From a virus: a stretch of DNA of 20,423 nucleotides. Shown here piece after piece: positions 883-19,979 of this stretch. A program made the translations under genes and the position numbers. The stretch spans positions 1 to 20,423 of IMG/VR virus record IMGVR_UViG_3300032401_000987, one strand, 5' to 3'. Within the stretch, counting starts at the first letter, position 1; the number at the start of each line of letters is the position of its first letter. The notes under the pieces are model-generated. The model saw only the letters and a program-made list of their open reading frames with translations. It was not told the DNA's origin and searched no databases.

Positions 883-1626
883 ATGACAACAAATCTCAAA
901 TCTCATCACGGCGTCTATAAAATAGCCAATCTTCTAAATGGTAAATTCTACATAGGATCGACAACTACCCCATTTTCGGTTAGATTCAGACATCACGAAC
1001 TAAATCTTCGAAAAAACAAGCACGGGAATCCACATCTCCAGCATTCGTGGAATAAATATGGAGCGGCAAATTTCCAGTTTTCCGTAGTAGAAATATGTGA
1101 TAAGACAAAATGTTTTGAACGAGAACAACATTACATCGATACACTTCATCCGGCTTACAATATTCTTCCTAAAGCCGGAATCGTGACAGGTTATAAACAT
1201 ACCGCCGAAACAAAAGCTAAAATCTCAAGAGCGTTTACAGGAAAAAATCACCCCGCGTACTCTGGAGAATACATGTTTTATCACCCCGTACATGGCATGT
1301 TCATTGGTGGTATGATGGAATTCAATAAAAGGTTTGGGCTTCGTAGAAACATTGGAAGTAAGCTCAAAACAAGGTTACTGGATAAATCCCACGGATGGAT
1401 TTATATTGGAAAATCTACTGATACCCCACCAGAACATATCGATGAATTCTATCACTCTCGTTGTTTCAACGATAGTCCAATTCATCATTTCATTCATACC
1501 GATGGAACTACGTTTAGCGGAAGAATGACGGAGTTTTACCACAAATATAAGTTGGATACCTCAACCATATCGAAACTGATAAGAGGAAAACGAAAATACG
1601 CTTTCGGATGGCGTATAAAAACTTGA
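883..1626 (+). CDS. GIY-YIG homing endonuclease with NUMOD3-like DNA-binding region
   Basis: A 247-residue protein. The GIY-YIG nuclease core is at the N-terminus: GVYKI at residues 10-14, FYIGST at 22-27, catalytic-type arginines around 34-36, and YNI near 92-94. A NUMOD3-like linker follows (residues about 104-128, with KHTAETKAKISRAFTGKNH). The C-terminal half holds two similar units of about 48 residues (about 129-177 and 199-247). Each has a hydrophobic start, an (M)MEF/MTEF helix and a GW(I/R)I end, which looks like a duplicated DNA-reading module. Free-standing enzymes of this kind spread by cutting alleles that lack them. The neighbouring genes are intact, so it is intergenic rather than inside a gene. 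Its TGA stop lies within the -35 box of the next gene's promoter. No Shine-Dalgarno sequence is seen before the ATG. Confidence 0.88.
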   Translation: MTTNLKSHHGVYKIANLLNGKFYIGSTTTPFSVRFRHHELNLRKNKHGNPHLQHSWNKYGAANFQFSVVEICDKTKCFEREQHYIDTLHPAYNILPKAGIVTGYKHTAETKAKISRAFTGKNHPAYSGEYMFYHPVHGMFIGGMMEFNKRFGLRRNIGSKLKTRLLDKSHGWIYIGKSTDTPPEHIDEFYHSRCFNDSPIHHFIHTDGTTFSGRMTEFYHKYKLDTSTISKLIRGKRKYAFGWRIKT

Positions 1627-2852: not shown

Positions 2853-4361
2853 ATGCCAAAACCAAGAATGTGTTTACTCTCTGACGATCTCCGAATGAAC
2901 TCGGGCATCGCTACAATGTCACGGCAGTTGGTTCTCGATACCGTTCACATGTTTGATTGGGTACAAATCGCTGGTGCTATCACTCACCCAGACAAAGGAA
3001 AAGTCTTTGATCTTTCACAGGCGACCAATCAAATGAAAGGAATCAAGGATGCCTACGTGAAACTTTATCCAACCGATGGATACGGCAATGAGCAGATGCT
3101 TTTCCAGATCATCGCTCAAGAAAAGATTGATGCCATTTTACACTTCACCGATCCACGTTTTTGGTCGTGGTTATATTCAATAGAGAACCAGATCAGGGCC
3201 AGAATACCATTGACTTATCTCAATATTTGGGATGACATTCCATATCCAATGTACAATCGGGCATTCTATGAGAGTTGCGATGCTTTATTTAGCATCAGCA
3301 AGCAAACCATGAACATCAATCGGCATGTGCTTGGGCCAGAAAATACGTACTTCCTGACCGATGATATGGGCAACGACCCAAAGGCATATGCCCACGGAAA
3401 AACATTACTTCATCTTGTTCCACATGGCATTGATTCAGATGTTTTCAAGCCTCTCCCCAAAGACGACGCGAAGCTGGTTGAGATGCGTAAACGAGTTTTC
3501 CAAGGGCGGGATTACAAATTTGTTATCTTCTACAACTCCCGAAACGTTCAACGTAAACGCACAAGCAACATCATCCTTGCCTTCCGTGCCCTTTGTGATA
3601 ATCTCCCAGCCGACGAAGCCAGCAAATGCGTGTTGATTCTTCATACCGAAGTTATGTGTGATGCGGGTACAAACCTTCTCGCAATCAAAGAAGCATTCTG
3701 TCCCGACAACAACATCATCTTCTCGCCGGGCAAACTGTCACCCGAGGATATGTGTCTGATGTACAATCTTGCCGACATAACCATCAACGCATCCTCGAAC
3801 GAAGGATTCGGACTATCGGTTGCTGAAAGCATTATGTGTGGAACACCCGTATCTGTTGCCGTCACCGGAGGATTGCAAGACCAGATCGGGCAAACCGAAG
3901 AGGATGGAAAACCAGTTGAATTCAAGTTAGACTTCGGAAGCAACAACATCGGACGTTACAAAACTCACGGACCTTGGGCATATCCGGTCTGGCCAGTAAC
4001 TCGTATGGTTCAGGGATCTATTCCCACACCATACATTTTCGATGACCTTACCAAGTGGGAGGACTTTGCCGACAGCTACATGTACTGGTATCTCATGGGC
4101 GATGAAAAACGAGCCCGCTGTGGTCAGATCGGACGTGAATGGTGTCTCGGGGAAGGTGGGTTGAACTCTAAAAATATGGGCCAGCAGTTCATCAATGGAA
4201 TGGAGTTCCTCTTCAAAAACTGGACTCCGCCCAAGAAATTCGGGTTCTATACCAAAGATAACTATATCGGCAACCAGATGCCTCATAAGTGTTTGGGCTT
4301 CCCAATGCCTATTATCGACAAGGAAGAAATCCAGAAAAAGATCGAGTCACTAAAATTATGA
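2853..4361 (+). CDS. GT4-family glycosyltransferase
   Basis: A 502-residue GT-B fold retaining glycosyltransferase. The N-terminal half has a nucleotide-sugar transferase pattern with an early glycine stretch (MNSGIATMSRQL, residues about 15-26) and HGID at 191-194. The C-terminal half has the phosphate-binding stretch NSRNVQRKR (228-236) and the signature NEGFGLSVAE (316-325), giving the E-x7-E pair Glu317/Glu325 that contacts the donor sugar. It is followed by CGTPV and a GG loop. A long C-terminal extension after residue about 400 goes beyond a standard GT4. No signal peptide is visible, so it acts in the cytoplasm. It is separated from the RHH-like gene by 20 nt, and its TGA overlaps the next ATG (ATGA). 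Donor and acceptor cannot be told from sequence. No Shine-Dalgarno precedes the start. Confidence 0.88.
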   Translation: MPKPRMCLLSDDLRMNSGIATMSRQLVLDTVHMFDWVQIAGAITHPDKGKVFDLSQATNQMKGIKDAYVKLYPTDGYGNEQMLFQIIAQEKIDAILHFTDPRFWSWLYSIENQIRARIPLTYLNIWDDIPYPMYNRAFYESCDALFSISKQTMNINRHVLGPENTYFLTDDMGNDPKAYAHGKTLLHLVPHGIDSDVFKPLPKDDAKLVEMRKRVFQGRDYKFVIFYNSRNVQRKRTSNIILAFRALCDNLPADEASKCVLILHTEVMCDAGTNLLAIKEAFCPDNNIIFSPGKLSPEDMCLMYNLADITINASSNEGFGLSVAESIMCGTPVSVAVTGGLQDQIGQTEEDGKPVEFKLDFGSNNIGRYKTHGPWAYPVWPVTRMVQGSIPTPYIFDDLTKWEDFADSYMYWYLMGDEKRARCGQIGREWCLGEGGLNSKNMGQQFINGMEFLFKNWTPPKKFGFYTKDNYIGNQMPHKCLGFPMPIIDKEEIQKKIESLKL

Positions 4362-6385: not shown

Positions 6386-6575
6386 AACAAAGTATTTCTG
6401 TGATGTTCATCCAGATCGGGAATGCTTCTCCCAAGTGGAGAGTGTCAGTTGGTATGGGAGTACCAAGTTTGACATGATGCAGATGGAACTTCATCTGTGT
6501 GATGATTGTATGGTGGAATTCTATACGTACATGGAACAAAAATACAGAGTAAAACCAAAAGATGTGATATTATGA
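6360..6575 (+). CDS. Small putative zinc-binding protein
   Basis: A 71-residue protein with two metal-ligand clusters: Cys14-x2-His17 followed by Cys22, and His45-x-Cys47-x2-Cys50 (HLCDDC). The spacing suggests one zinc site built from a CxxH and a CxxC knuckle, a treble-clef or ribbon type. The ATG at 6360 overlaps the end of the previous gene by 26 nt; an upstream in-frame ATG at 6309 would add 17 residues but deepen the overlap. The gene ends in an ATGA overlap with the GT4-like gene. The role is not known; small zinc proteins in phages often bind nucleic acid or host proteins. Confidence 0.6.
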   Translation: MKKEIVAAETKYFCDVHPDRECFSQVESVSWYGSTKFDMMQMELHLCDDCMVEFYTYMEQKYRVKPKDVIL

Positions 6576-7897
6576 GTAAACCTATTTGCATTCTCCAGAG
6601 TCCTATTTGGACACGATCAGGATATGGTGACTGGGCAACGACCATCGCCAAGAGTCTTCTTCGTTACGACAAGTTTGACTTGATGCTTGCTCCAACAGTT
6701 TGGGGAGCGTGCAGCAAGAAAAATCTGGATGAAGAAATCAATGACCCCGAAGGAAAGGTGCTTCTCACCAAAGTTATTCGTGGACCGCTTCCTCGCCAAC
6801 CGGAGGTGTTTATACAAGTCACAATTCCGAATGAGTTTGCAACACCCGCAAAGTTCAACATTGGAATGACAGCGGGCATCGAAACAACTGTCCCACGTCC
6901 TGAATGGATCGAGGGATTGAACCGAATGAACTACAACATCGTGACTTCGGTTCATGCCCGTGACGTATTAGCACAGGCAACCTACTCCAAAAAGAACCCA
7001 GACAACAGCGTAGTACCTCTCCGAGTGGAGAAACCTATGGACGTTTTGTTCTGGGGAGCCAACACGAAAATCTTCAAGAAGACAAGTGAAAGAACCTCCA
7101 CGATTGATGCAACTTTCCAAGACATCAAAGACCAGTTTGGGTTCTTGTTCGTTGGTCAGTGGACGGGAGGCAATATGAATGCCGACCGTAAGGCCATCGG
7201 GTTCCTGATCAAAACTTTCTTGGAAACGTTCCGCGACGTGAAAGACCCGCCTTGTCTCATTCTCAAAACAAGCGGAGCCCAACTCAGTGTTATGGATCGA
7301 TACGAATGCATAGGCAAAATCAAGGAAGTCACCGAGATTGTCAGGGGACAACATCCTGCTTCTGCCTTTCCGAACGTCTATCTTCTTCACGGAGAACTAA
7401 CCGATATGGAAATGAACGCATTGTACAATCACGAAAAGGTGAAAGTACATGTGAGCTTCACACATGGAGAAGGATTCGGGCATCCGTTGCTTCTATCCAC
7501 GTTGAGTGGCAAACCTTTGCTAACTCCTCATTGGAGCGGGCACTTGGACTTCTTGAATCCGTCCTTTACCAAGTTCTTCGAGGGAAAATTGGTGCCCATC
7601 CCGGGAGAGGCTGTCAACGACTGGTTTGTCAAAGATGCTCAGTGGTATGAAGTGGATTATGAAGCCGCTGGAAGAAAGATGAAGGATTACTTCAACAACT
7701 ATACCGACAAATTGCCAGATGCCGAGAAGCTACGAGCCGAAAATGAGAAGAAGTTCTCGTTGGAAGCTATGGACAAAGTGTTCCACTCTATTCTTGACAA
7801 GTGCGTTCCGAAGTTTTCAACCGAGCAAACCATCAATCTGCCAAAGTTGAAAAAACTCAATCTTCCTCGTTTGGCAGTTAAAAAACAAGAAAATTAA
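6572..7897 (+). CDS. GT4-like glycosyltransferase lacking the second donor-site Glu
   Basis: A 441-residue GT-B type transferase. N-terminal features: ILQSPIWTRSGYGDWA (8-23), with the glycine-containing loop that follows strand 1. The C-terminal domain starts at a FVGQW strand (193-197) and holds THGEGFGHPLLLS (297-309), the equivalent of the GT4 E-x7-E signature. Only the first glutamate (Glu300) is present; position 308 is Leu. SGKPLLTPHWSGHLDF follows, as in many group-1 transferases from phage and metagenomes. The ATG at 6572 overlaps the upstream TGA (ATGA); an upstream frame extension to 6506 lies inside the zinc-protein gene. No signal peptide. Donor and acceptor are unknown. Activity is likely but not assured given the missing glutamate. 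Confidence 0.82.
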   Translation: MSKPICILQSPIWTRSGYGDWATTIAKSLLRYDKFDLMLAPTVWGACSKKNLDEEINDPEGKVLLTKVIRGPLPRQPEVFIQVTIPNEFATPAKFNIGMTAGIETTVPRPEWIEGLNRMNYNIVTSVHARDVLAQATYSKKNPDNSVVPLRVEKPMDVLFWGANTKIFKKTSERTSTIDATFQDIKDQFGFLFVGQWTGGNMNADRKAIGFLIKTFLETFRDVKDPPCLILKTSGAQLSVMDRYECIGKIKEVTEIVRGQHPASAFPNVYLLHGELTDMEMNALYNHEKVKVHVSFTHGEGFGHPLLLSTLSGKPLLTPHWSGHLDFLNPSFTKFFEGKLVPIPGEAVNDWFVKDAQWYEVDYEAAGRKMKDYFNNYTDKLPDAEKLRAENEKKFSLEAMDKVFHSILDKCVPKFSTEQTINLPKLKKLNLPRLAVKKQEN

Positions 7898-7923
7898 GTT
7901 TTTTGAGTTTTGGAATTATATTT

Positions 7924-8727
7924 ATGGATATGGAATACTACATATACCATTTAATAGATCCTAAAACACATCTACCATTTTACGTTGGTAGAGGTAAAAA
8001 TAACAGGATGTATGACCATGAATGTTTAGCAATAAATGGGCATATTCCAAACAACAACTTACATTTATATCATAAAATACGTAAAATAATGCGAGAATCA
8101 GGAAGCATTCAATACCTTAAAATTGCGGAACATCTGCCTTTCGCTGTTGCTAACCAAAAAGAAATAGAAGAAATCTCCAAATGGAAAAGAAAAAGAGATG
8201 GAGGAATTTTATGTAATTTAACACTGGGAGGAGAAGGATGGAACGGAAATCACACGCCATTAAGTAAAATAAAAATGTCAAGATTAGCCAAATCTCCTCA
8301 AAGATTAAGTACCGCAACCAACAACGTTCAAAAGGCAATTCAAAAAAATACAGGATGGAGAAAATTGGAAAGATTTCATTCAAAAATTATTCAAGATTAC
8401 GAATCCAAATGTCTAACGGAAGTACAAAAAAAGTATGGAGTATGTTTTCAAACATTACAAAAATATCTTAAAGAAAAAGGAATATTCGTTGCAAACAAAA
8501 ATAGAAAAGATACCGAAGAAGTTAGAAAGAAAAAATCTATAGCAAATCGGGGGAAAGCATCTCGGCCAGTAAATCAATATTCTTTGGATGGGAGTTTCTT
8601 AAAGGCATGGTCAAATATGTCATCTGCATGTGAATTTTTGGGAAAACCCAATCGACAAGGTGACATTTGTACCTGCTGTTTGGGAAAACAAAAAACGGCG
8701 TTCGGATATAAATGGAAATATAAGTAA
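7924..8727 (+). CDS. GIY-YIG homing endonuclease with NUMOD1-like C-terminus
   Basis: A 267-residue protein. The N-terminus has a GIY-YIG-type core in variant form: YYIYHLID (5-12), FYVGRGKNNRMYDH (19-32), a Glu-containing helix (QKEIEEISKW, 78-87) and CNLTLGGEGW (97-106). A helix-turn-helix-like segment lies near 160-185 (TEVQKKYGVCFQTLQKYLKEKG). The C-terminus (215-267; VNQYSLDGSFLKAW...CCLGKQKTAFGYKWKY) matches the NUMOD1 pattern. The gene is clearly more AT-rich than the flanking glycosyltransferase genes and uses many AAA/ATA/TTA codons, indicating separate acquisition. It sits 26 nt after one glycosyltransferase gene and 6 nt before another, both complete. Start: the ATG at 7924 is preferred over the TTG at 7903; the ATG at 7930 is also possible. 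No Shine-Dalgarno. Confidence 0.87.
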   Translation: MDMEYYIYHLIDPKTHLPFYVGRGKNNRMYDHECLAINGHIPNNNLHLYHKIRKIMRESGSIQYLKIAEHLPFAVANQKEIEEISKWKRKRDGGILCNLTLGGEGWNGNHTPLSKIKMSRLAKSPQRLSTATNNVQKAIQKNTGWRKLERFHSKIIQDYESKCLTEVQKKYGVCFQTLQKYLKEKGIFVANKNRKDTEEVRKKKSIANRGKASRPVNQYSLDGSFLKAWSNMSSACEFLGKPNRQGDICTCCLGKQKTAFGYKWKYK

Positions 8728-8733
8728 TAAGTT

Positions 8734-9438
8734 ATGAAAATCAGTTACTTGGTCACGTGCAGCACCGAAACAAAAACACTCAAAAACCTGTTTGAAAAAC
8801 TCATTCTGGTTCTTCCCAACTCGGAAGATGAAGCCGTTGTTCTTATTGATTCGGATTCTGTCATTCCCGAAACCAAAGAAATCTGCAATCGTTTCCTTTC
8901 GGGTTCTCTAGGTCAAATTCGTTTACTTGACCATTCATTATCGCGCAATTACGGTGCTCATAAAAATTGGGGAGCAGAGCAGTGTAACGGAAATTGGATT
9001 TTCCAGATTGATGGGGATGAGGTTCCATCTGAGTTTACCCTCGGTGATAACCTTCATGAAATCATAAAATCAAACCCAGATATGGATTTGATTTATGTCC
9101 CAAGAATCAATGATTTCAGGGGAGTGCAAGATATTCATGCCAAACAGTGGGGATGGCATCTGACCATTTCACCGATTTATAAACGATATCGTGTCAATTG
9201 GCCCGATTATCAGCCGCGAGTTTTTTTACGTGACCCATCTCGCATAAAATGGGATCGACGGCTTCATGAAAAGATTGAAGGATTCACCAATTATGCCACC
9301 TTACCTGCCGACGAGGAATTTGCTCTCTATCATGACAAAACCATTGAAAAACAAGTCGAAACCAATGTAAGATACAATCAGTGGTTCACCGAAGAGGAAA
9401 ACCGAGGACATGATGTCTTTTCCCAGAAGAAACTATGA
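8734..9438 (+). CDS. GT2-family glycosyltransferase (WaaE/KdtX-like)
   Basis: A 234-residue GT-A fold transferase. It has the acceptor/nucleotide-binding start KISYLVTCSTET, SRNYGAHKNWGAEQCNGNWIFQIDGDE with the metal-binding DGD at 93-95, and a downstream block YQPRVFLRDP...WDRRLHEKIEG typical of the WaaE/KdtX-type GT2 subgroup, which adds sugars to lipopolysaccharide core or similar acceptors. The canonical first segment with a DDxS motif is poorly kept (LIDSDS at 38-42 is the nearest). Cytoplasmic, no membrane helix. It starts 6 nt after the homing endonuclease stop, without a Shine-Dalgarno, and ends in an ATGA overlap with the next methyltransferase gene. The specific sugar is not identifiable. 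Confidence 0.85.
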   Translation: MKISYLVTCSTETKTLKNLFEKLILVLPNSEDEAVVLIDSDSVIPETKEICNRFLSGSLGQIRLLDHSLSRNYGAHKNWGAEQCNGNWIFQIDGDEVPSEFTLGDNLHEIIKSNPDMDLIYVPRINDFRGVQDIHAKQWGWHLTISPIYKRYRVNWPDYQPRVFLRDPSRIKWDRRLHEKIEGFTNYATLPADEEFALYHDKTIEKQVETNVRYNQWFTEEENRGHDVFSQKKL

Positions 9439-12972: not shown

Positions 12973-14088
12973 ATGAAATCTGTTTTTCTAACTGAAATGG
13001 GGTTCCAAGGTCAAGTCCCTCCCGACCATCCCAACCTCAGAACCGAATTTTGCTGGATGCTTGCATTAGAGGCAGACCACTTTAACATTTATCATTATGA
13101 AATGGTAAAAGGATATGATGTTGTATTTGTCATTTTTCCAAAGGCAATGGTTAAACTAAACGCTTTTGGGGTCGAATTAGGAGACATTACTACTATTACT
13201 AAGCCCGCATTCCCCGAAGATAAAGTTGATTACCCAGATAATAAGTTACACGCAACCCCACTACCTAATGAATTACATTCATCTATTACTAATGATTCAT
13301 ATGAATTAAAAGATATATACAAGAAACAATTGAGCCTATACAAATTTCCTATAATAGAAACTTTACGTCTTCACAATAAAAAGGTATGTTTTGTTCAGGA
13401 AGGTGATCATTATTTGTTCAATGACTATGACATGGAGACTCAGTTTCATTTCTACAACCAACTTGCCGACTGTGATGTTCTCTTCGCTCACAATCAAACC
13501 GATGCCATTTTTTACAAGGGGTTGTTTCAAGGGAAACGGGTAGATGTCATTCCGACTCTCATGTATCCTCCTCCCTTGTCCGAACCAGCGGAGAAACAGA
13601 ACAAAGTAATCATAAGTGGAAACTTCTGTCGGTGGTATGGTGGATTCCAAAGCTATATGGTAGCCCAGACATTTGATTGCCCAATCTATGTTCCATCATC
13701 TCATTGTAAACGGAGAGGAGAAGAACAAGTCCCTAATCTAACTCATTTGCCATGGACTAACTGGACCGATTGGATGCAATGCTTATCCAACTTCAAGTAT
13801 GCTGTAAACCTCATGCCAACAGTAGCAGCGGGCACATTCAGTTTGAACTGTGCCTATTGGGGCATTCCGTGTATCGGTAATGTTGAAGTAGATACGCAAA
13901 AGGATCTATTCCCGCACTTGTCTGTTCACATCCACAATGTTCAAGGAGCTATGAATAGGGCCGAAATCCTGAAAAGTGAGAAAATGTATAGCCATATGGG
14001 CAGAATGGCAAACGAACTTATGAGAAACTCTTGGCATTTCGATCGAGACAAGTGGCTCGATCATATGGAAAGAACTGTCAATGGATAA
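12973..14088 (+). CDS. Putative GT-B glycosyltransferase
   Basis: A 371-residue protein with the general build of a GT-B transferase. N-terminal strand KSVFLTEMGFQGQ; central strand KVCFVQEGDHY (137-147); an inter-domain segment VDVIPTLMYPPPL; a C-terminal domain opening at KVIISGNFCRWYGGF; and a late glycine-containing segment VNLMPTVAAGTFSLNCAYWGIPCIGN that occupies the donor-binding region. The E-x7-E pair of GT4 is not visible, so the family is uncertain. Residues about 35-135 are encoded by noticeably AT-richer DNA than the rest and include a hydrophilic stretch (about 70-115) of low conservation appearance. It ends in an 8-nt overlap (ATGGATAA) with the fusion gene. No Shine-Dalgarno. 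No membrane segment. Confidence 0.65.
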   Translation: MKSVFLTEMGFQGQVPPDHPNLRTEFCWMLALEADHFNIYHYEMVKGYDVVFVIFPKAMVKLNAFGVELGDITTITKPAFPEDKVDYPDNKLHATPLPNELHSSITNDSYELKDIYKKQLSLYKFPIIETLRLHNKKVCFVQEGDHYLFNDYDMETQFHFYNQLADCDVLFAHNQTDAIFYKGLFQGKRVDVIPTLMYPPPLSEPAEKQNKVIISGNFCRWYGGFQSYMVAQTFDCPIYVPSSHCKRRGEEQVPNLTHLPWTNWTDWMQCLSNFKYAVNLMPTVAAGTFSLNCAYWGIPCIGNVEVDTQKDLFPHLSVHIHNVQGAMNRAEILKSEKMYSHMGRMANELMRNSWHFDRDKWLDHMERTVNG

Positions 14089-15598
14089 TCGTTTCATCAT
14101 CGTCATAGGCAGTCGTAACAACTCCCAATGGGTAGAGAGTAATCTTGGTTCTGTACTCAGTCAAGATTACACCAACTATAGGGTTCTCTATTTTGATGAT
14201 GCATCTGAAGATGATACCGCCGAAAAGGCCAGAGCAATAGTGAAAGGCGATAAGCGGTTTGAGATTTATGATCTTTACAAGAAGCGCAAATACAAGACGT
14301 GGTATTTTGCTCACATAGACCCCGAGAACGACAATGACATTCTGGTGTTCTTGGACGGCGATGACATGTTTGCTAGCGAGAATGTATTGTCATACCTCAA
14401 CTCGGTCTATAACCAAACAGGTTGTTGGATGACCTACGGAGGGATGCGAGTGTGGAATGGAGGAGAAGACATTGCCGAACCCTTTCCACAGAACTCTATC
14501 ATTCCAGATCAAGTCAAAGCCACGAAAGCATATCGCAAAGATACGTGGAGAAGTTCCCACCTTAAATCTATGCGGGGGTTCCTCTGGAAGGCATTTGACA
14601 AAAAAGACCTTTGCCCTGACGGAAAATATATGGTAGGGCCAGATGATCTGGCCATTATGTTTGCTATGCTTGAAATGTGTCCTCCTGAAAAAGTGTATCG
14701 GGTGACCGACCCCCTCTATATCTATAATCACAGTGAAGCCAATCAACATAGCCGAGCTTATACCGACCACAAAGAGAGCAAGATTGACTATGAGAGCATT
14801 GTAAGGAGCAGAAAGCCCTATGATACGATTTCGTTCGTTGCGCCAACACTCGCTGGAGGGCTGGGAAACCAAATGTTTGAGATTGCGGCTGCGGCTTCAC
14901 TGGCGAAAGACAATGGCGCAGTGCTCCTCATCAACAACGAGGAACACGTCCTCCCTAATCAGGGGAGGAATGTCAACAACTATCTCGACAACATCTTCTC
15001 TCGGATAATGATGGAGAAGAACCTTCCGATTCAAAATGTTTTTAGACAACGCAACTGTACGTACGAACCTATTCCATATCAACCAAATCTCAAACTCATG
15101 GGGCACTTTCAATCATGGAAGTATTTCGATCACAATCGAGAATACATTCAGAGGTTGTTTGGTCTCGACAAGCATGATAGTAGAGCGTTTGGCGATGTAG
15201 CCGTCCATGTCAGGCGAGGAGACTACTACAAGTTTCCAGATCATCATCCACAACTACCACCCAAGTATTTCATCGATGCTGTGAAGCTGGCAAAAGCCAA
15301 ACAGGTTGATGTATTCACTGATGACCCCAATTGGTGCAAAGAAAACCTCGATTTCGGAGTTCCTACTTTCTACGATTGTCCGTCTCCACCCAACGATTGG
15401 GTTGAGCTTTACCGAATGATGTGTTACCAAAACCTCATCATTTCCAACAGTAGTTTTGGGTGGTGGGGAGCCTATCTAAGCCGACACCCCGATGTCAAAA
15501 TTTATGTTCCATCCGTATGGTTTGGTCGAGCCATGATAGCCGAAGGATTCAATATAGACGATCTGGTATTACCAGAATGGATAAAGATGCAAGTATGA
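14081..15598 (+). CDS. Two-domain glycosyltransferase: GT2 fused to GT11 (alpha-1,2-fucosyltransferase-like)
   Basis: A 505-residue protein with two enzymes in one chain. Residues 1 to about 235 form a GT2 domain: IIVIGSRNNSQWVESNLGSV, YFDDASEDDT (37-46), the metal-binding VFLDGDD (89-95) and a late IYNHSEANQHSR. Residues about 250-505 form a GT11 domain: AGGLGNQMFEIAAAASLA (258-275), VAVHVRRGDYY (373-383, with the donor-binding HxRRGD) and SNSSFGWWGAYLS (455-467). GT11 enzymes transfer fucose from GDP-fucose in alpha-1,2 linkage; some relatives use other sugars. The chain likely adds two successive sugars. It is a single uninterrupted frame with no linker of low complexity. GGAAAG lies 8 nt before the ATG, compatible with weak ribosome binding; the start is one of the four without T at -1. 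Confidence 0.9.
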   Translation: MDNRFIIVIGSRNNSQWVESNLGSVLSQDYTNYRVLYFDDASEDDTAEKARAIVKGDKRFEIYDLYKKRKYKTWYFAHIDPENDNDILVFLDGDDMFASENVLSYLNSVYNQTGCWMTYGGMRVWNGGEDIAEPFPQNSIIPDQVKATKAYRKDTWRSSHLKSMRGFLWKAFDKKDLCPDGKYMVGPDDLAIMFAMLEMCPPEKVYRVTDPLYIYNHSEANQHSRAYTDHKESKIDYESIVRSRKPYDTISFVAPTLAGGLGNQMFEIAAAASLAKDNGAVLLINNEEHVLPNQGRNVNNYLDNIFSRIMMEKNLPIQNVFRQRNCTYEPIPYQPNLKLMGHFQSWKYFDHNREYIQRLFGLDKHDSRAFGDVAVHVRRGDYYKFPDHHPQLPPKYFIDAVKLAKAKQVDVFTDDPNWCKENLDFGVPTFYDCPSPPNDWVELYRMMCYQNLIISNSSFGWWGAYLSRHPDVKIYVPSVWFGRAMIAEGFNIDDLVLPEWIKMQV

Positions 15599-16281
15599 TC
15601 TATGCCATGGGAAACAGCCACGCCAATTTCTTCTCAAACTCTCACCCCGGCGTAATCGGATGGGGAGACCATACGAGATACCCCGAGCTTGGATGGAAAG
15701 GTACAAGGAACGAATACTTCATGTCTTATTCGGCGAACTTTCACAACCCCGAGTACCGACATGTATTAGCACACAAATTTGTTGAACGGCACTTTCCTTA
15801 CATCATCAACGCCATCAATCAAGTACCCATGACCAAGAAAGACTACATCATGTTCATTGTCGGGGAGATTGATTGTCGTTGGCATTTCCCCAAAAAAATC
15901 AAAACACAAAATTGCACAGTTGATGGTGTATTGACAGAAGAAATGGAATATTTCTTTCCGGCATTCCTATACCTGAAAGAAAATGGATATAACATCGTAG
16001 GATGGGGCGGTCACCCCTCTACTACAAAAGGACATAACAACGACCCCGACAATCCTATTTATGGAGATTGTTTGTTAAGAAACGAAATCAGCTTGAAATG
16101 GAACGATTTATTGAAAGATAGATGCCAACAAAACGATATCAAGTTCATATCCATTATCCGAAATCTGATCAACCCCGGCGGATTTACCAAGATGGAATAC
16201 TTTTGGGATGATTATCATCTAAAGCCAAGCGTTCTTCCAATAGTCATAGAAAAATGCAAAGCAGAAGGCATTATATGCTGA
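15595..16281 (+). CDS. SGNH/GDSL-type hydrolase or acyltransferase-like protein
   Basis: A 228-residue protein. The N-terminal block MGNSHANFF (5-13) places Ser8 as nucleophile in a G-N-S-H version of the SGNH block I. FIVGEIDCRWHF (87-98) resembles block III, and the C-terminal DDYHLKP (205-211) supplies the Asp-x-x-His dyad (Asp205/His208) of block V. This set is typical of SGNH carbohydrate esterases and related O-acyl-transfer enzymes. No signal peptide, so it is cytoplasmic, unlike secreted lipases. Position inside a glycan cluster suggests acetylation or deacetylation of sugars. The start at 15595 forms an ATGA overlap with the fusion gene; an in-frame extension to 15460 lies wholly within that gene. 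It overlaps the FkbM gene by 7 nt. Confidence 0.72.
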   Translation: MIYAMGNSHANFFSNSHPGVIGWGDHTRYPELGWKGTRNEYFMSYSANFHNPEYRHVLAHKFVERHFPYIINAINQVPMTKKDYIMFIVGEIDCRWHFPKKIKTQNCTVDGVLTEEMEYFFPAFLYLKENGYNIVGWGGHPSTTKGHNNDPDNPIYGDCLLRNEISLKWNDLLKDRCQQNDIKFISIIRNLINPGGFTKMEYFWDDYHLKPSVLPIVIEKCKAEGIIC

Positions 16282-16883
16282 AACCGTTACCAGAACTCAT
16301 TACCGAATACAAACTTGTTCTGCGAGGTGTAATCCATATTGGAGGGCATCGAGGGCAAGAGTATCCTTACTATAAATCGGCGGGATTGAAAAATATCATC
16401 TTTGTAGAGCCGCACCCTCATAACTTTCAATACCTGAAAGAAAACGTGGGGGCGGAATGTGTTCTCTTTGAAATAGCTCTTGGTAATACTAAAGGAACCA
16501 TCGAGATGTTTGTAGAAGAAGCAAACCAAGGTCAATCATCATCGATACTCGAACCAAGAGTTCATCTACTTCAGTATCCACAGATTGAGTTTCTCTATAA
16601 AATAGATGTTCCCATTACCAAACTCGACTTGCTTCCTTTTAGCCGGCCCGACTTCAACTTCATCAACATTGACGTTCAAGGATATGAGTTGGAAGTATTC
16701 AGGGGAAGTACTGAAACTTTGAAAAGTATTGATTACATTTATGCTGAAGTCAATCGCGACGAACTCTACAAGGATTGTGCCAGAGTGGAGGATGTGAGCA
16801 AATTCCTCGGCGAGTTTGGGTTTGAGATGGTAAATGTGTGGTGGTTAGGAGGGTCGTGGGGCGATGCTTTGTATGTCCGATAA
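16275..16883 (+). CDS. FkbM-family methyltransferase
   Basis: A 202-residue SAM-dependent methyltransferase. Family marks: GVIHIGGHRGQEYPYY (18-33; the SAM loop, commonly DVGA.xG, here HIGGHRG), FVEPHPHNFQYLKENV (43-58) and FINIDVQGYELEVFRGS (129-145), the highly typical D-x-x-G-x-E block. FkbM-type enzymes methylate hydroxyl groups, often on sugars in phage and bacterial glycan loci. The ATG at 16275 is chosen for the GAAGG element 6 nt upstream and small overlap; the ATG at 16254 would add 7 residues. It overlaps the GT10 gene by 20 nt. Confidence 0.88.
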   Translation: MLKPLPELITEYKLVLRGVIHIGGHRGQEYPYYKSAGLKNIIFVEPHPHNFQYLKENVGAECVLFEIALGNTKGTIEMFVEEANQGQSSSILEPRVHLLQYPQIEFLYKIDVPITKLDLLPFSRPDFNFINIDVQGYELEVFRGSTETLKSIDYIYAEVNRDELYKDCARVEDVSKFLGEFGFEMVNVWWLGGSWGDALYVR

Positions 16884-17685
16884 ACCAATGCTCAATATGA
16901 TAGGAGGAGGGTTTCAACATGCTTTCTCCTCCTGTGGATGGAATCATCCCAAGGAAATTGTATGGGATAAGACTACTCATAACAGTTCCATATCCGTTCA
17001 TATCGACGCGGCTGTCTTTGACATCCTTCCTAATAAATCCAAACTGAACATTGCGTTCTTCTGTGAATCGCCTTACTTCATGCGTCCGTATGCCGCGAGA
17101 TTTGACAACCCCACCGTCAAAGCGTGGGCTCTAGAGAACTACAAGTGGATTTTCACCAGCGACAAAGGAGTACTGAAAAAGCATCCTGAATTCAAATACA
17201 TCATTCCTCATGCTCATCCGTGGATTCAGGATCGAGCCATCTTCCCCAAGACAAAGTTGGCATCCATCATCGCATCAGCAAAGCGGGAATCACCGGGTCA
17301 TCAGCTACGACATATCGTTGTGAAGAACTATGGCGATTCTATAGATGCTTTCGGTGGAGGATATAAACCCATAAAGCTCAAAGGAGAAGGTTTGAATGAT
17401 TACATGTTTTCTTTTGCCATCGAAAACGTAGAGATTGAGGGCTATTTCACCGAAAAAATAACTGATTGTTTCGCCTGCGGAACTATACCTATATACTGGG
17501 GAGACCCTACCATCTCCGACCACTTTGTCGAAGAAGGTATCGTTCGGTTGAACGATGGGTTTGATGGAAGTTGTCTTACCCAAGAGTTTTACGAGTCCAA
17601 AATGAGTTACATCAAAGAAAACTTCGAACGAGTCGTCAATTTTCCAATACCGGAGGATTATATTTACCTCAACTACCTGAAATAA
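16864..17685 (+). CDS. GT10-family glycosyltransferase (alpha-1,3-fucosyltransferase-like)
   Basis: A 273-residue protein. The C-terminal donor-binding part carries the GT10 hallmark: YMFSFAIENVEIEGYFTEK (180-198) with the FxFxxEN and Y-x-TEK elements, then CGTIPIYWGDP (205-215). The N-terminal half includes FFCESPYFMRPYA (65-77) and IFTSDKGVLKKHP (96-108). GT10 enzymes transfer fucose from GDP-fucose in alpha-1,3/1,4 linkage. AGGAGG (16847-16852) lies 11 nt before the ATG at 16864 and is the only perfect Shine-Dalgarno-like hexamer noted at a start. The ATG at 16873 is an alternative that would have T at -1. The stop TAA at 17683-17685 is the first codon of the 56-bp direct repeat. Confidence 0.87.
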   Translation: MLCMSDKPMLNMIGGGFQHAFSSCGWNHPKEIVWDKTTHNSSISVHIDAAVFDILPNKSKLNIAFFCESPYFMRPYAARFDNPTVKAWALENYKWIFTSDKGVLKKHPEFKYIIPHAHPWIQDRAIFPKTKLASIIASAKRESPGHQLRHIVVKNYGDSIDAFGGGYKPIKLKGEGLNDYMFSFAIENVEIEGYFTEKITDCFACGTIPIYWGDPTISDHFVEEGIVRLNDGFDGSCLTQEFYESKMSYIKENFERVVNFPIPEDYIYLNYLK

Positions 17686-17738
17686 CCTATGAGCGAATAC
17701 ACATTAGTTTCATCTTTGCACAACCAAGGAACTTACTA
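17683..17738 (+). repeat. 56-bp perfect direct repeat, copy 1
   Basis: Runs from the TAA stop of the GT10 gene, through the 3-nt spacer CCT, to codon 17 of the methyltransferase gene. It is identical base for base to 18340-18395. The copies are 657 bp apart, a multiple of three and exactly one gene plus its spacer. Confidence 0.97.
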
Positions 17739-18342
17739 TTATCCAGATAATATCAAAGCAATAATAGACCTTCCGAGATTTTACTGGTCCCAATGTAGAT
17801 TTGATAACAATAACCGAGGAGATTGGGAAAGTGGTACCTTAGCAAATGGAGGCATCAACTTTCTCTATGGACTTTACGATTTGATTGTAGAAAACTTTGG
17901 CGAGAATTGTAAAGATTTTGTCGTTGCTGAAATCGGATGTTATGCGGGGGTATCTACTTCATTGTTTGCCGCTACCTGTAAATTCGTGTACGCCATCGAT
18001 CCATGGGGGAGTGTAACACCTGATGGCATAGAATCGGAGAGGCGATTTGATGAAGTGCTGAAAACCAGATCGAATATCAAAAAAATGAAAATGTACAGTG
18101 TAGAGGCCAGTCCTCTCTTTGAACCCGAATCACTGGATGCCGTGTACATCGATGGAGATCATTCTTACAAAGCCGTGCTGGAAGATATAGACGCTTGGTA
18201 CCCAAAAATCAAGAGGGGAGGAATTCTATGTGGGCACGATTTTACATGTGTCGATGTATCAAAGGCTTTACAAGAACGATTTCCAGAAAAATTTCCACCC
18301 AAACATTATTGCGATGTTAGTTGGGCGTTCAAAAAAGACTAA
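17689..18342 (+). CDS. SAM-dependent methyltransferase (Methyltransf_24-like)
   Basis: A 217-residue protein. SAM-binding VVAEIGCYAGVSTSLFA (78-94), VYAIDPWG (100-107), and the C-terminal block AVYIDGDHSYKAVLEDIDAWYPKIKRGG (from 151), whose IDGDHSY and GG...CGHDF elements are typical of the Methyltransf_24 family found in glycan and natural-product loci. The first 17 residues (MSEYTLVSSLHNQGTYY) are shared exactly with the next protein although the two enzymes are otherwise unrelated. The SAM fold begins only near residue 75, so the leader is unlikely to be part of the active site. No Shine-Dalgarno; the start follows the GT10 stop by 3 nt. Likely modifies a sugar hydroxyl; substrate unknown. 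Confidence 0.87.
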   Translation: MSEYTLVSSLHNQGTYYYPDNIKAIIDLPRFYWSQCRFDNNNRGDWESGTLANGGINFLYGLYDLIVENFGENCKDFVVAEIGCYAGVSTSLFAATCKFVYAIDPWGSVTPDGIESERRFDEVLKTRSNIKKMKMYSVEASPLFEPESLDAVYIDGDHSYKAVLEDIDAWYPKIKRGGILCGHDFTCVDVSKALQERFPEKFPPKHYCDVSWAFKKD

Positions 18343-18395
18343 CCTATGAGCGAATACACATTAGTTTCATCTTTGCACAACCAAGGAACTTACTA
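18340..18395 (+). repeat. 56-bp perfect direct repeat, copy 2
   Basis: Identical to 17683-17738. It covers the TAA stop of the methyltransferase gene, the CCT spacer, and the first 17 codons of the GT23-like gene except the final base of codon 17 (TAC here, TAT in copy 1). Flanks diverge immediately on both sides. Confidence 0.97.
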
Positions 18396-19212
18396 CTTCG
18401 TCAAGCCCGAAATAGCGGGCGTTGGATTGATGGGCTATTTCATGCAAGTGGTGAGGGCCATATTCAAGTTCCCAGATCAAAAGTACTACATCTACATTGG
18501 GCCTCCCACGGGTGGAGAAAATGTATGGGATTTCTACTTCAAGCAACCAAATCCCGAAATCAACCCGAATAAAGATCAAAAGATTGCCGACGTGGGAATC
18601 ATCTTCGATGAGGAAAGTGAATTCGTGGAGATTTACCCGTGCATGAAGAAGTTAACACCCGACCAGATCAAAGACCGCTGGAGAAAATTCAACGGCATCA
18701 CGAAGAAGTACTTCGTGTTGCACGAGCCCCTCCAAGCGAAAATCAATGAGTTCAAAGCCAATCATTTTACTGGCAAGAAAGTCATGGGGCTTCATTACCG
18801 TGGAGCCGATGCGTTTACGAGAGTAAGCGGCGATGCTCCTCCTCATGTGACCACGCTCTTTGAGAGAATAGACAAAGAACTTGAGGGGTTTGATGCTATC
18901 TTTGTCTGTACCGACGACACCGAAACGTTTGGGTTACTCACGTCCCGTTATGGATCGAAAGTCATTCACTACGAAATAACAACCCGAAGTACTGTCGATC
19001 ATGGCAACTATCCTATGTCTCGTGATGCCTTATCCAGTTGGACTCGAAACAACAAGGGATACAAGATTGGAGAAGATCTGGTCATGGAAACACATTTGCT
19101 TGCCTCTACAGATTTGTTACTATGCGGATGTTTTGGAAACGTCAATGCGTTTGTAAGAGCATTAAATCCAGAACTGCCCGCCAAGATTATGTTCGTTCCA
19201 ACAATACTATGA
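18346..19212 (+). CDS. GT23/O-fucosyltransferase-superfamily-like glycosyltransferase
   Basis: A 288-residue protein. After the borrowed-looking 17-residue leader, a usual start of such enzymes follows: YYFVKPEIAGVGLMGYFMQVVRAIF (residues 16-40, a glycine-containing loop then a helix). The C-terminal half has MGLHYRGADAF (147-157), equivalent to the H-x-R-G-x-D motif that binds GDP-fucose in NodZ, FUT8 and protein O-fucosyltransferases; IFVCTDD (185-191); and DLLLCGCFGNVNAFVRALNP (256-275), the position of the S/T-x-FG-type motif. Related proteins in bacterial glycan loci are mostly of unproven specificity, so fucose is a family-based inference. No Shine-Dalgarno; ends in ATGA overlap with the next gene. 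Confidence 0.75.
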   Translation: MSEYTLVSSLHNQGTYYFVKPEIAGVGLMGYFMQVVRAIFKFPDQKYYIYIGPPTGGENVWDFYFKQPNPEINPNKDQKIADVGIIFDEESEFVEIYPCMKKLTPDQIKDRWRKFNGITKKYFVLHEPLQAKINEFKANHFTGKKVMGLHYRGADAFTRVSGDAPPHVTTLFERIDKELEGFDAIFVCTDDTETFGLLTSRYGSKVIHYEITTRSTVDHGNYPMSRDALSSWTRNNKGYKIGEDLVMETHLLASTDLLLCGCFGNVNAFVRALNPELPAKIMFVPTIL

Positions 19213-19979
19213 GCAATGTAGTGTTCATTCATGCCGCCAATATGGCAATAGATAAGCGGGGACGACCCAGCCTTGGGCGGTGTCAGCAAATCATCGATCG
19301 AATGATTGTGTTCATCATGGACGCAAGAATCTACGAAGATGTGTCGGCAATCTACTTGAACTATACAGGTGAAAAAGAACTCAAGTTTGACGTGCCGAAG
19401 GCGGTTTTGAAGCACCATGAAGGAGACGTTCACCAGTGGGAGTTTCCAACTCTTCAACAAATGAGAGCCCATTGCAGGGCCAATCCAGAAGACAACGTGC
19501 TTTACCTTCACACACAAGGAGTCAGCGAGGGATTTCACCATATTGAAGGAGAGTTCATCCACAACCTTATTGAGCAAAGGCGCGATTATCACTTCTATTG
19601 GAACATCACCAAGTACAAAGAAGTATTGGAGCATCTCAAAACGTATGATACTTGCGGAGCTATGCTCGTTGCTCTGAACGCCGATGTAGAGAGAGGCGCG
19701 GATGGTCGCCCACACGCCAAAAGCTTGCCCGCTCGTCCAGTCTGGCATTACTCTCAGAACTTCTGGTGGTCGCGGGCCGCTCATATCAATTCCTTGCCAG
19801 ATCCGCAAAACTACCCTTTGATTTTAGATGAGAGGCATCAGGCCGAGTTTTGGCTTTGTTCATCCACGGGTACTGGCAGACACAAGTGTATTCATCAGTT
19901 GTACGAATCGTGGTGTTACGCCGATGATTTCAGTAAATCCCTCTATATGGACGAGGAACACATCAGGAAGTTCTCCTAA
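19209..19979 (+). CDS. Putative glycosyltransferase
   Basis: A 256-residue soluble protein. It contains NVLYLHTQGVS (96-106), HFYWNITKYKEVL and, most tellingly, WHYSQNFWWSRAAHINSLPDP (179-199). This resembles the HYSGNFWW-type block of a set of uncharacterised transferases found in cyanobacterial and viral glycan loci, followed by RHQAEFWLCS. No classic DxD is seen. The start at 19209 forms an ATGA overlap with the GT23-like gene; the open frame extends upstream to 19038 but lies inside that gene. It has no membrane segment. The transferase call is by resemblance and context and has not been tested. Confidence 0.6.
   Translation: MSNVVFIHAANMAIDKRGRPSLGRCQQIIDRMIVFIMDARIYEDVSAIYLNYTGEKELKFDVPKAVLKHHEGDVHQWEFPTLQQMRAHCRANPEDNVLYLHTQGVSEGFHHIEGEFIHNLIEQRRDYHFYWNITKYKEVLEHLKTYDTCGAMLVALNADVERGADGRPHAKSLPARPVWHYSQNFWWSRAAHINSLPDPQNYPLILDERHQAEFWLCSSTGTGRHKCIHQLYESWCYADDFSKSLYMDEEHIRKFS

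Follow-up and report, generated by a model that had tools for sequence, protein, structure and literature searches.

It has long been asked how T4-like phages bring new genes into operons that are tightly packed. In T4-related phages, the junctions of imported genes have been reviewed as typically devoid of a familiar mobile-element signature (Petrov et al. 2010, PMC2993671), while in cluster K mycobacteriophages a short repeat has been described upstream of start codons (the SAS/ESAS elements: 13 bp, 11-19 copies per genome; PMC3203893). Here we describe a locus in which two neighbouring, unrelated genes begin with the same 56 bp. The window (i.e. the whole stretch of DNA that was analysed) is an IMG/VR fragment of 20,423 bases, a metagenome contig, as are its relatives, that represents a partial genome only. 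We regard it as reasonably probable that its repeat is a duplicated gene start, in which the 56-bp 5' piece of a methyltransferase gene (MT) was copied onto the gene that follows it (GT23-like). The features to which the text refers are given below.

8734..9438, plus strand: GT2 gene, whose orthologue in G012/G015 bears a 29-bp duplicated start
12973..14088, plus strand: island gene, whose orthologue in L111 bears a 28-bp duplicated start
16864..17685, plus strand: GT10-family gene (fucosyltransferase C-terminal domain; Pfam PF00852, E 2.9e-6), directly upstream of MT
17683..17738, plus strand: left copy of the repeat (GT10 stop codon TAA, CCT spacer, ATG and the first 17 codons of MT, the 17th incomplete)
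17689..17708 and again 18346-18365, plus strand: 20-nt leader core ATGAGCGAATACACATTAGT, which recurs at gene starts in L188 and G001
17689..18342, plus strand: SAM methyltransferase gene (MT, Methyltransf_24; 217 aa)
18340..18395, plus strand: right copy of the repeat, identical to the left one (MT stop codon TAA, CCT, ATG and the first 17 codons of GT23-like)
18346..19212, plus strand: gene for a GT23-like transferase with a predicted FUT8/NodZ fold (288 aa), residues 1-14 being an extension absent from ~18 distinct homologues
19209..19979, plus strand: downstream gene (256 aa; homologues in L187/L260), whose ATG overlaps the GT23-like stop codon

The two copies of the repeat, whose starts are 657 bp apart, are identical in all 56 nt, and each of them places 47 coding nucleotides behind the TAA (of GT10 or of MT), the CCT and the ATG. 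Codon 17 ends in T in one gene and in C in the other, both encoding Tyr, so that the proteins share 17 identical residues (MSEYTLVSSLHNQGTYY, hereafter the leader). Since the whole window contains no other exact direct repeat of at least 22 nt (imperfect ones reach 23 nt), this one lies far beyond chance expectation, and the perfect identity of its copies, which extends to silent sites, suggests that the duplication may have been recent. The gene bodies are assigned on different grounds: MT matches Pfam PF13578 (Methyltransf_24) over residues 81-185 (E 2.5e-17; 64.1 bits against a curated cut-off of 26.3), GT23-like matched nothing in Pfam and PHROG, and the protein encoded at 19209..19979 had no family in either of these collections. 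The earlier note had proposed that a perfect 56-bp repeat gives two unrelated enzymes the same N-terminus, which is exactly what the window contains, and that recombination between the copies would excise MT cleanly. This also held in silico: the loss of one 657-bp unit removed exactly MT, and left both the GT10 stop codon and the 288-aa leader-GT23 ORF intact. Recombination in T4 requires about 50 bp of homology. As the repeat would satisfy this need and flanks exactly one gene, a clean loss of MT by homologous recombination is plausible and would be expected.

Searches for a function or a wider distribution of the repeat gave little. RNA structure predictions yielded no signal (z -0.3 to -0.9), Rfam matched no family, nothing notable was seen in the repeat in the way of promoters or terminators, and no recombinase signal was found within or adjoining it. 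An exact 50-mer of the repeat had no match in IMG/VR, and a distant-mode search of phage records with the 56-mer returned one chance-level match (E 4). Relatives of the window, in which the earlier note had suggested that the 56-mer be sought, yielded no second occurrence of it: the full 56-mer was found nowhere outside the window in the collections searched, whose scans may omit records nearly identical to the window.

Since single-sequence searches (MT or GT23-like in IMG/VR, GT23-like in GTDB genomes and phages) returned nothing, relatives were reached through conserved genes of the glycan island and then through a GT23-like alignment. The glycosyltransferase (GT) gene at window 2853-4361 retrieved 15 related records, and further loci were drawn with GT2, the 12973-14088 family and the GT23-like alignment, the comparison set comprising ~220 loci of related phages. 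Most of the 15 records share a gene order (exonuclease, small ORF, GT, dUTPase-like, GT, GT2), and in most related records GT2 precedes an island of variable content, whose genes for glycosyltransferases, methyltransferases and enzymes of nucleotide-sugar metabolism abut almost without gaps. Among these phages, G001 has genes for a recombinase (UvsX-like), a helicase (DnaB-like), a DNA polymerase and a ribonucleotide reductase, which together constitute a T4-like replication/recombination gene set. The closest relative found (L188) shares ~66-69% DNA identity with the window over long collinear stretches, and the MT-GT23 pair itself was not found in any relative among these loci.

Several other features of these genomes were observed. 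The ORF at window 14081-15598, which has a collinear orthologue in L188, combines GT2 and GT11 (fucosyltransferase) domains in one protein, and window 883-1626 encodes a NUMOD3-containing homing endonuclease of the GIY-YIG type, adjoining a RecB-like exonuclease gene. The GT gene that is intact at window 2853-4361 is split at almost one and the same position, residue ~164-183, in G005-G008 and G012-G014, and at ~314 in G010/G011 (in which the orthologue of 6506-7897 is split as well); the interruptions in relatives span ~40 to 1,100 bp, and a group I intron was considered for them, with no match in Rfam. Tandem 213-aa paralogues, whose repeats of 24-74 bp recur at a distance of 637 bp, occur in L138/L252, L210 (e.g. 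14365-15640) and L254, and indicate that the islands also undergo whole-gene tandem duplication. G010 (L089-L107), a 368-kb phage contig, carries at ~337,000-349,500 small ORFs in a long tandem array. The starts of these ORFs are nearly identical, their stop and start codons overlap, and their proteins consist almost entirely of a [S/D]QV[R/W/Y/E/L] repeat (e.g. MNNKLINDQIYLQVEDQIRSQVLSQVELQVWSQV...). Tandem arrays of a 13-bp repeat, different in sequence, are present in G001 (~50291) and G011 (~92288).

The comparison with homologues bears directly on the question of which gene the leader belonged to. An AlphaFold model of GT23-like, built from a six-sequence alignment (mean pLDDT 72), matched FUT8 (E 3e-9, probability 1.00) and NodZ (4e-6) in a Foldseek search of the PDB, with a TM score of ~0.5. 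We therefore assign to it a predicted FUT8/NodZ fold and a putative transfer of fucose from GDP-fucose, and we use the label 'GT23-like' only, because no curated family profile matches. The homologues recovered from island loci are 31-35% identical to it. In all five that were aligned the initial methionine passes directly into the body of the protein, the window protein having exactly 14 additional residues behind its Met, and ~18 distinct, clearly comparable GT23-family ORFs begin 2-10 residues ahead of the first strand (e.g. MYRYLHPTQ, MKYIIIKNNG, MSDYIVIKPE). As the homologues start at the first strand without a leader, the leader is, on this comparison, a foreign N-terminal extension of ~14 residues that was added to GT23-like. 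In the model, the first strand sets in at residue 16 and residues 1-12 have pLDDT values under 50, i.e. the leader residues are modelled as disordered. Because the first internal methionine lies only at residue 29, within the conserved body, GT23-like depends on the start codon that the leader supplies, and providing a functional start codon is probably all that the leader does there.

A mixed picture emerged for the methyltransferases. In L188, L189 and L195 the native methyltransferase N-termini (EYTLVRDITTYDYP, EYTLTKDITTYTYP and YKLINSVNIYNYP, respectively) are comparable to EYTLVSSLHNQGTYYYP and can be aligned both with the leader and with a YP motif which follows it. At the DNA level, the methyltransferase gene of L188 opens with an exact copy of the core ATGAGCGAATACACATTAGT (21 nt if the T ahead of it is counted), and a methyltransferase-like ORF of 105 aa in G001 opens with a version that differs at two bases; the earlier note had suggested that other genes with the leader be sought. 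In both phages an epimerase gene, the same in each, immediately follows the gene with the core. The L188 match, which ties for second-longest among the exact runs shared by the window and L188 in spite of unrelated gene bodies, ends sharply after 20 nt of leader, and the remaining part (SSLHNQGTYY) had no DNA match within the compared set. A degenerate 20-mer (ATGARYGAATACACATTAGT) detected in IMG/VR only the L188 and G001 contigs (in both cases at ORF starts, and within the same phage group), and the exact 20-mer was absent from GTDB genomes. Other starts shared across phages by non-homologous genes were reduced to AT-rich low complexity or to distant Rossmann-fold homologues. We consider that the leader is most likely of methyltransferase origin, and since it most likely belongs to the methyltransferase, the start would have been copied from MT to GT23-like. 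The earlier idea that a 5' end was copied between the two genes is thereby retained, and refined in its direction by the leaderless GT23 homologues. Against an MT origin, the nearest homologue of the MT body (L116, 35%) has no leader and starts at the equivalent of MT residue 15 (the same position at which the GT23 homologues start), so that the leader may be native to neither gene.

The same matches bear on the possibility that the leader, as a selected start module, is passed between genes and acts as a translation enhancer or as a targeting/docking tag for glycan-modifying enzymes. In three related phages, four genes whose bodies differ begin with its first 7 codons (or nearly so), and the silent sites are perfectly conserved within the window, as such a module would have it. 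On the other hand, these three phages are the only ones concerned, the remainder of the leader is unshared, the repeat shows neither RNA structure, Rfam match nor notable promoter, the leader is predicted to be disordered, and the versions in L188, L189 and L195 diverge just as ordinary sequence does. We thus hold this explanation to be improbable, and a general reusable start module, as the earlier note had envisaged, weakly supported: the first part of the leader does stand on methyltransferase-like genes of L188 and G001, but two IMG/VR contigs do not amount to wide reuse.

The occurrence of duplicated starts was surveyed across 3728 distinct gene starts of island loci and related genomes, by recording copies of at least 25 nt that lie 150-3000 nt upstream of a start and outside the same ORF (G010, with its many internal repeats, was excluded from the statistics). 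Three of the 3728 starts were duplicated (those of the window, G012/G015 and L111), and a further 445 starts (L270-L314) added none; as controls, gene ends gave one tRNA-like repeat, and gene middles gave tandem paralogues together with one contig-end repeat. G012 and G015 are contigs from different samples that are 100% identical over 20 kb, and their 29-bp duplicated start (copies 663 bp apart) surrounds an inserted 201-aa gene: a remnant of the left copy (MNNPFISYLVISGNIK-stop) is followed by the 201-aa gene and by an intact GT2. The start duplicated in L111 (28 bp, 619 bp apart) surrounds an inserted FkbM-type methyltransferase gene, with a remnant (MKTAFLTEMEFV-stop) ahead of the FkbM-like methyltransferase and the intact 12973-14088 orthologue behind it. 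The two events are independent of each other, and the genes inserted in them are ~600 bp long. Both junctions are tight in relatives (from -4 to ~+25 nt in ~35 relatives for the GT|GT2 junction of the G012 type, and at most 30 nt in 58 of 65 relatives for the L111 type). Some relatives (G010/G011 and L113) carry homologues of the G012 insert at other places, which marks it as a phage-family gene that changes position, and in L116 a gene of the window's MT type is itself inserted in the GT|GT2 junction. In the window this junction contains 7903-8727, a GIY-YIG-like homing endonuclease gene; a homologue (44%) lies at the corresponding site in G014, and other small genes occupy the site in L112 and L192. 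From these gene arrangements the GT|GT2 junction is apparently an insertion hot spot.

In G012 and L111 it is the start of the downstream gene that was duplicated, with a left copy that survives as a remnant of 12-16 codons. In the window the start most likely came from the upstream gene, and both copies are in use. The outcome is alike in the three cases, but polarity and fusion differ between the window and G012/L111, and a single mechanism is unproven with n=3 events. If the polarity of G012 and L111 also applied to the window, the leader would be native to GT23-like and MT would be the newcomer, inserted in its first codons with a duplication of the start and a chance in-frame fusion. These two loci display exactly that polarity, and the nearest MT body (L116) is leaderless and is an insert in a junction that is tight in ~35 relatives; none of the GT23-like homologues possesses the N-terminal extension, and the closest matches to the leader are methyltransferase-like genes. 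We regard this polarity as rather unlikely for the window.

The spacing of the repeats (657, 663 and 619 bp) is of the size of one unit, the inserts lie at gene junctions, and the window has GIY-YIG homing endonuclease genes (including one at the junction that is interrupted in G012), all of which could be read in favour of a dedicated cassette system, i.e. a site-specific recombinase, a homing endonuclease or a transposon that uses the repeat as its site. We consider such a system very improbable: no sequence is common to the three repeats, neither recombinase nor endonuclease was found among the inserted and flanking proteins scanned, and the invariable position of the repeats at a gene start is explained by selection for intact genes. 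The cassette-exchange scar of the earlier note is kept as a recombination scar (a gene of the MT family does insert at a junction, in L116), and a dedicated exchange of cassettes finds no support, no recombinase having been found in the repeat or beside it. The contig comes from a short-read metagenome, which could raise the suspicion of an assembly artefact, yet 56 bp is shorter than an ordinary read, the leader supplies the start codon of both MT and GT23-like, a similar duplication is identical in G012 and G015 (from different samples), and the leader core recurs in independent assemblies, all of which leave this explanation with hardly any credibility.

The reading that we prefer, a methyltransferase start copied onto GT23-like, could have come about as follows. 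MT would have arrived with the leader or would already have had it, and a piece of 56 bp, from the upstream neighbour's stop codon through MT codon 17, would have been copied onto the start of GT23-like, where it would replace the gene's own start codon and add ~14 residues. Short-homology (illegitimate) recombination or template switching during replication may have been the route, with TAA as the left joint and, close to where GT23 natively starts, TACTA as the right one; read off the window sequence, both motifs are compatible with the putative microhomology. A tandem duplication of MT, with a subsequent deletion reaching into GT23-like, is equally possible and would yield the same product. 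As the island genes abut almost without gaps, an insertion would be viable only if the ends of both neighbours were kept, and a template switch or an illegitimate crossover that carries a copied neighbour start would keep them.

More tentatively, and with the odds against it, we propose that genes enter the glycan islands of this UvsX-encoding phage group at zero-gap junctions, by a route in which a neighbour's start is regularly duplicated. Were this true, duplicated starts of 28-56 bp would be the scars of that route, which would keep all genes expressed and, through the direct repeat left behind, would make the newcomer reversible. The duplicated starts of the related phages hint at the addition of genes without the breaking of neighbours and, if general, the route would explain how a gene can be inserted between touching genes with neither being silenced, and why unrelated enzymes may share an N-terminus. 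The duplicated start of a neighbour would then be a readable scar of import for which any phage collection could be screened, and it would predict the clean loss of exactly one gene.

Compared with known systems, the locus resembles a transposon target-site duplication in that an insert lies between direct repeats; it differs in the length of these repeats (28-56 bp, with no common sequence), in their constant position at a gene start and in that no transposase was found (no match in MT or the flanking proteins scanned, and no terminal inverted repeats at the 657-bp unit), and the proteins scanned did not include an integron integrase. The insertion of free-standing homing endonucleases in T4-like phages (PMC2988022) likewise places small genes between conserved ones, and GIY-YIG genes are present in the window; the inserts with duplicated starts are instead methyltransferases or an unknown protein (MT being a methyltransferase, and the G012 and L111 inserts lacking an endonuclease match), and the start of a neighbour is duplicated. 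With SAS/ESAS (PMC3203893) the window repeat has in common that it is short, tied to translation starts and shared by genes of different families, whereas it is 56 bp long, mostly coding and present in two copies in a 20-kb fragment. The closest parallel is the mosaicism of T4-related phages (PMC2993671), which also involves non-core genes at junctions, a phage group with UvsX-like and DnaB-like proteins and the absence of mobile-element signatures; in contrast to it, the junctions of the window's group bear a specific scar, the duplicated start of a neighbour.
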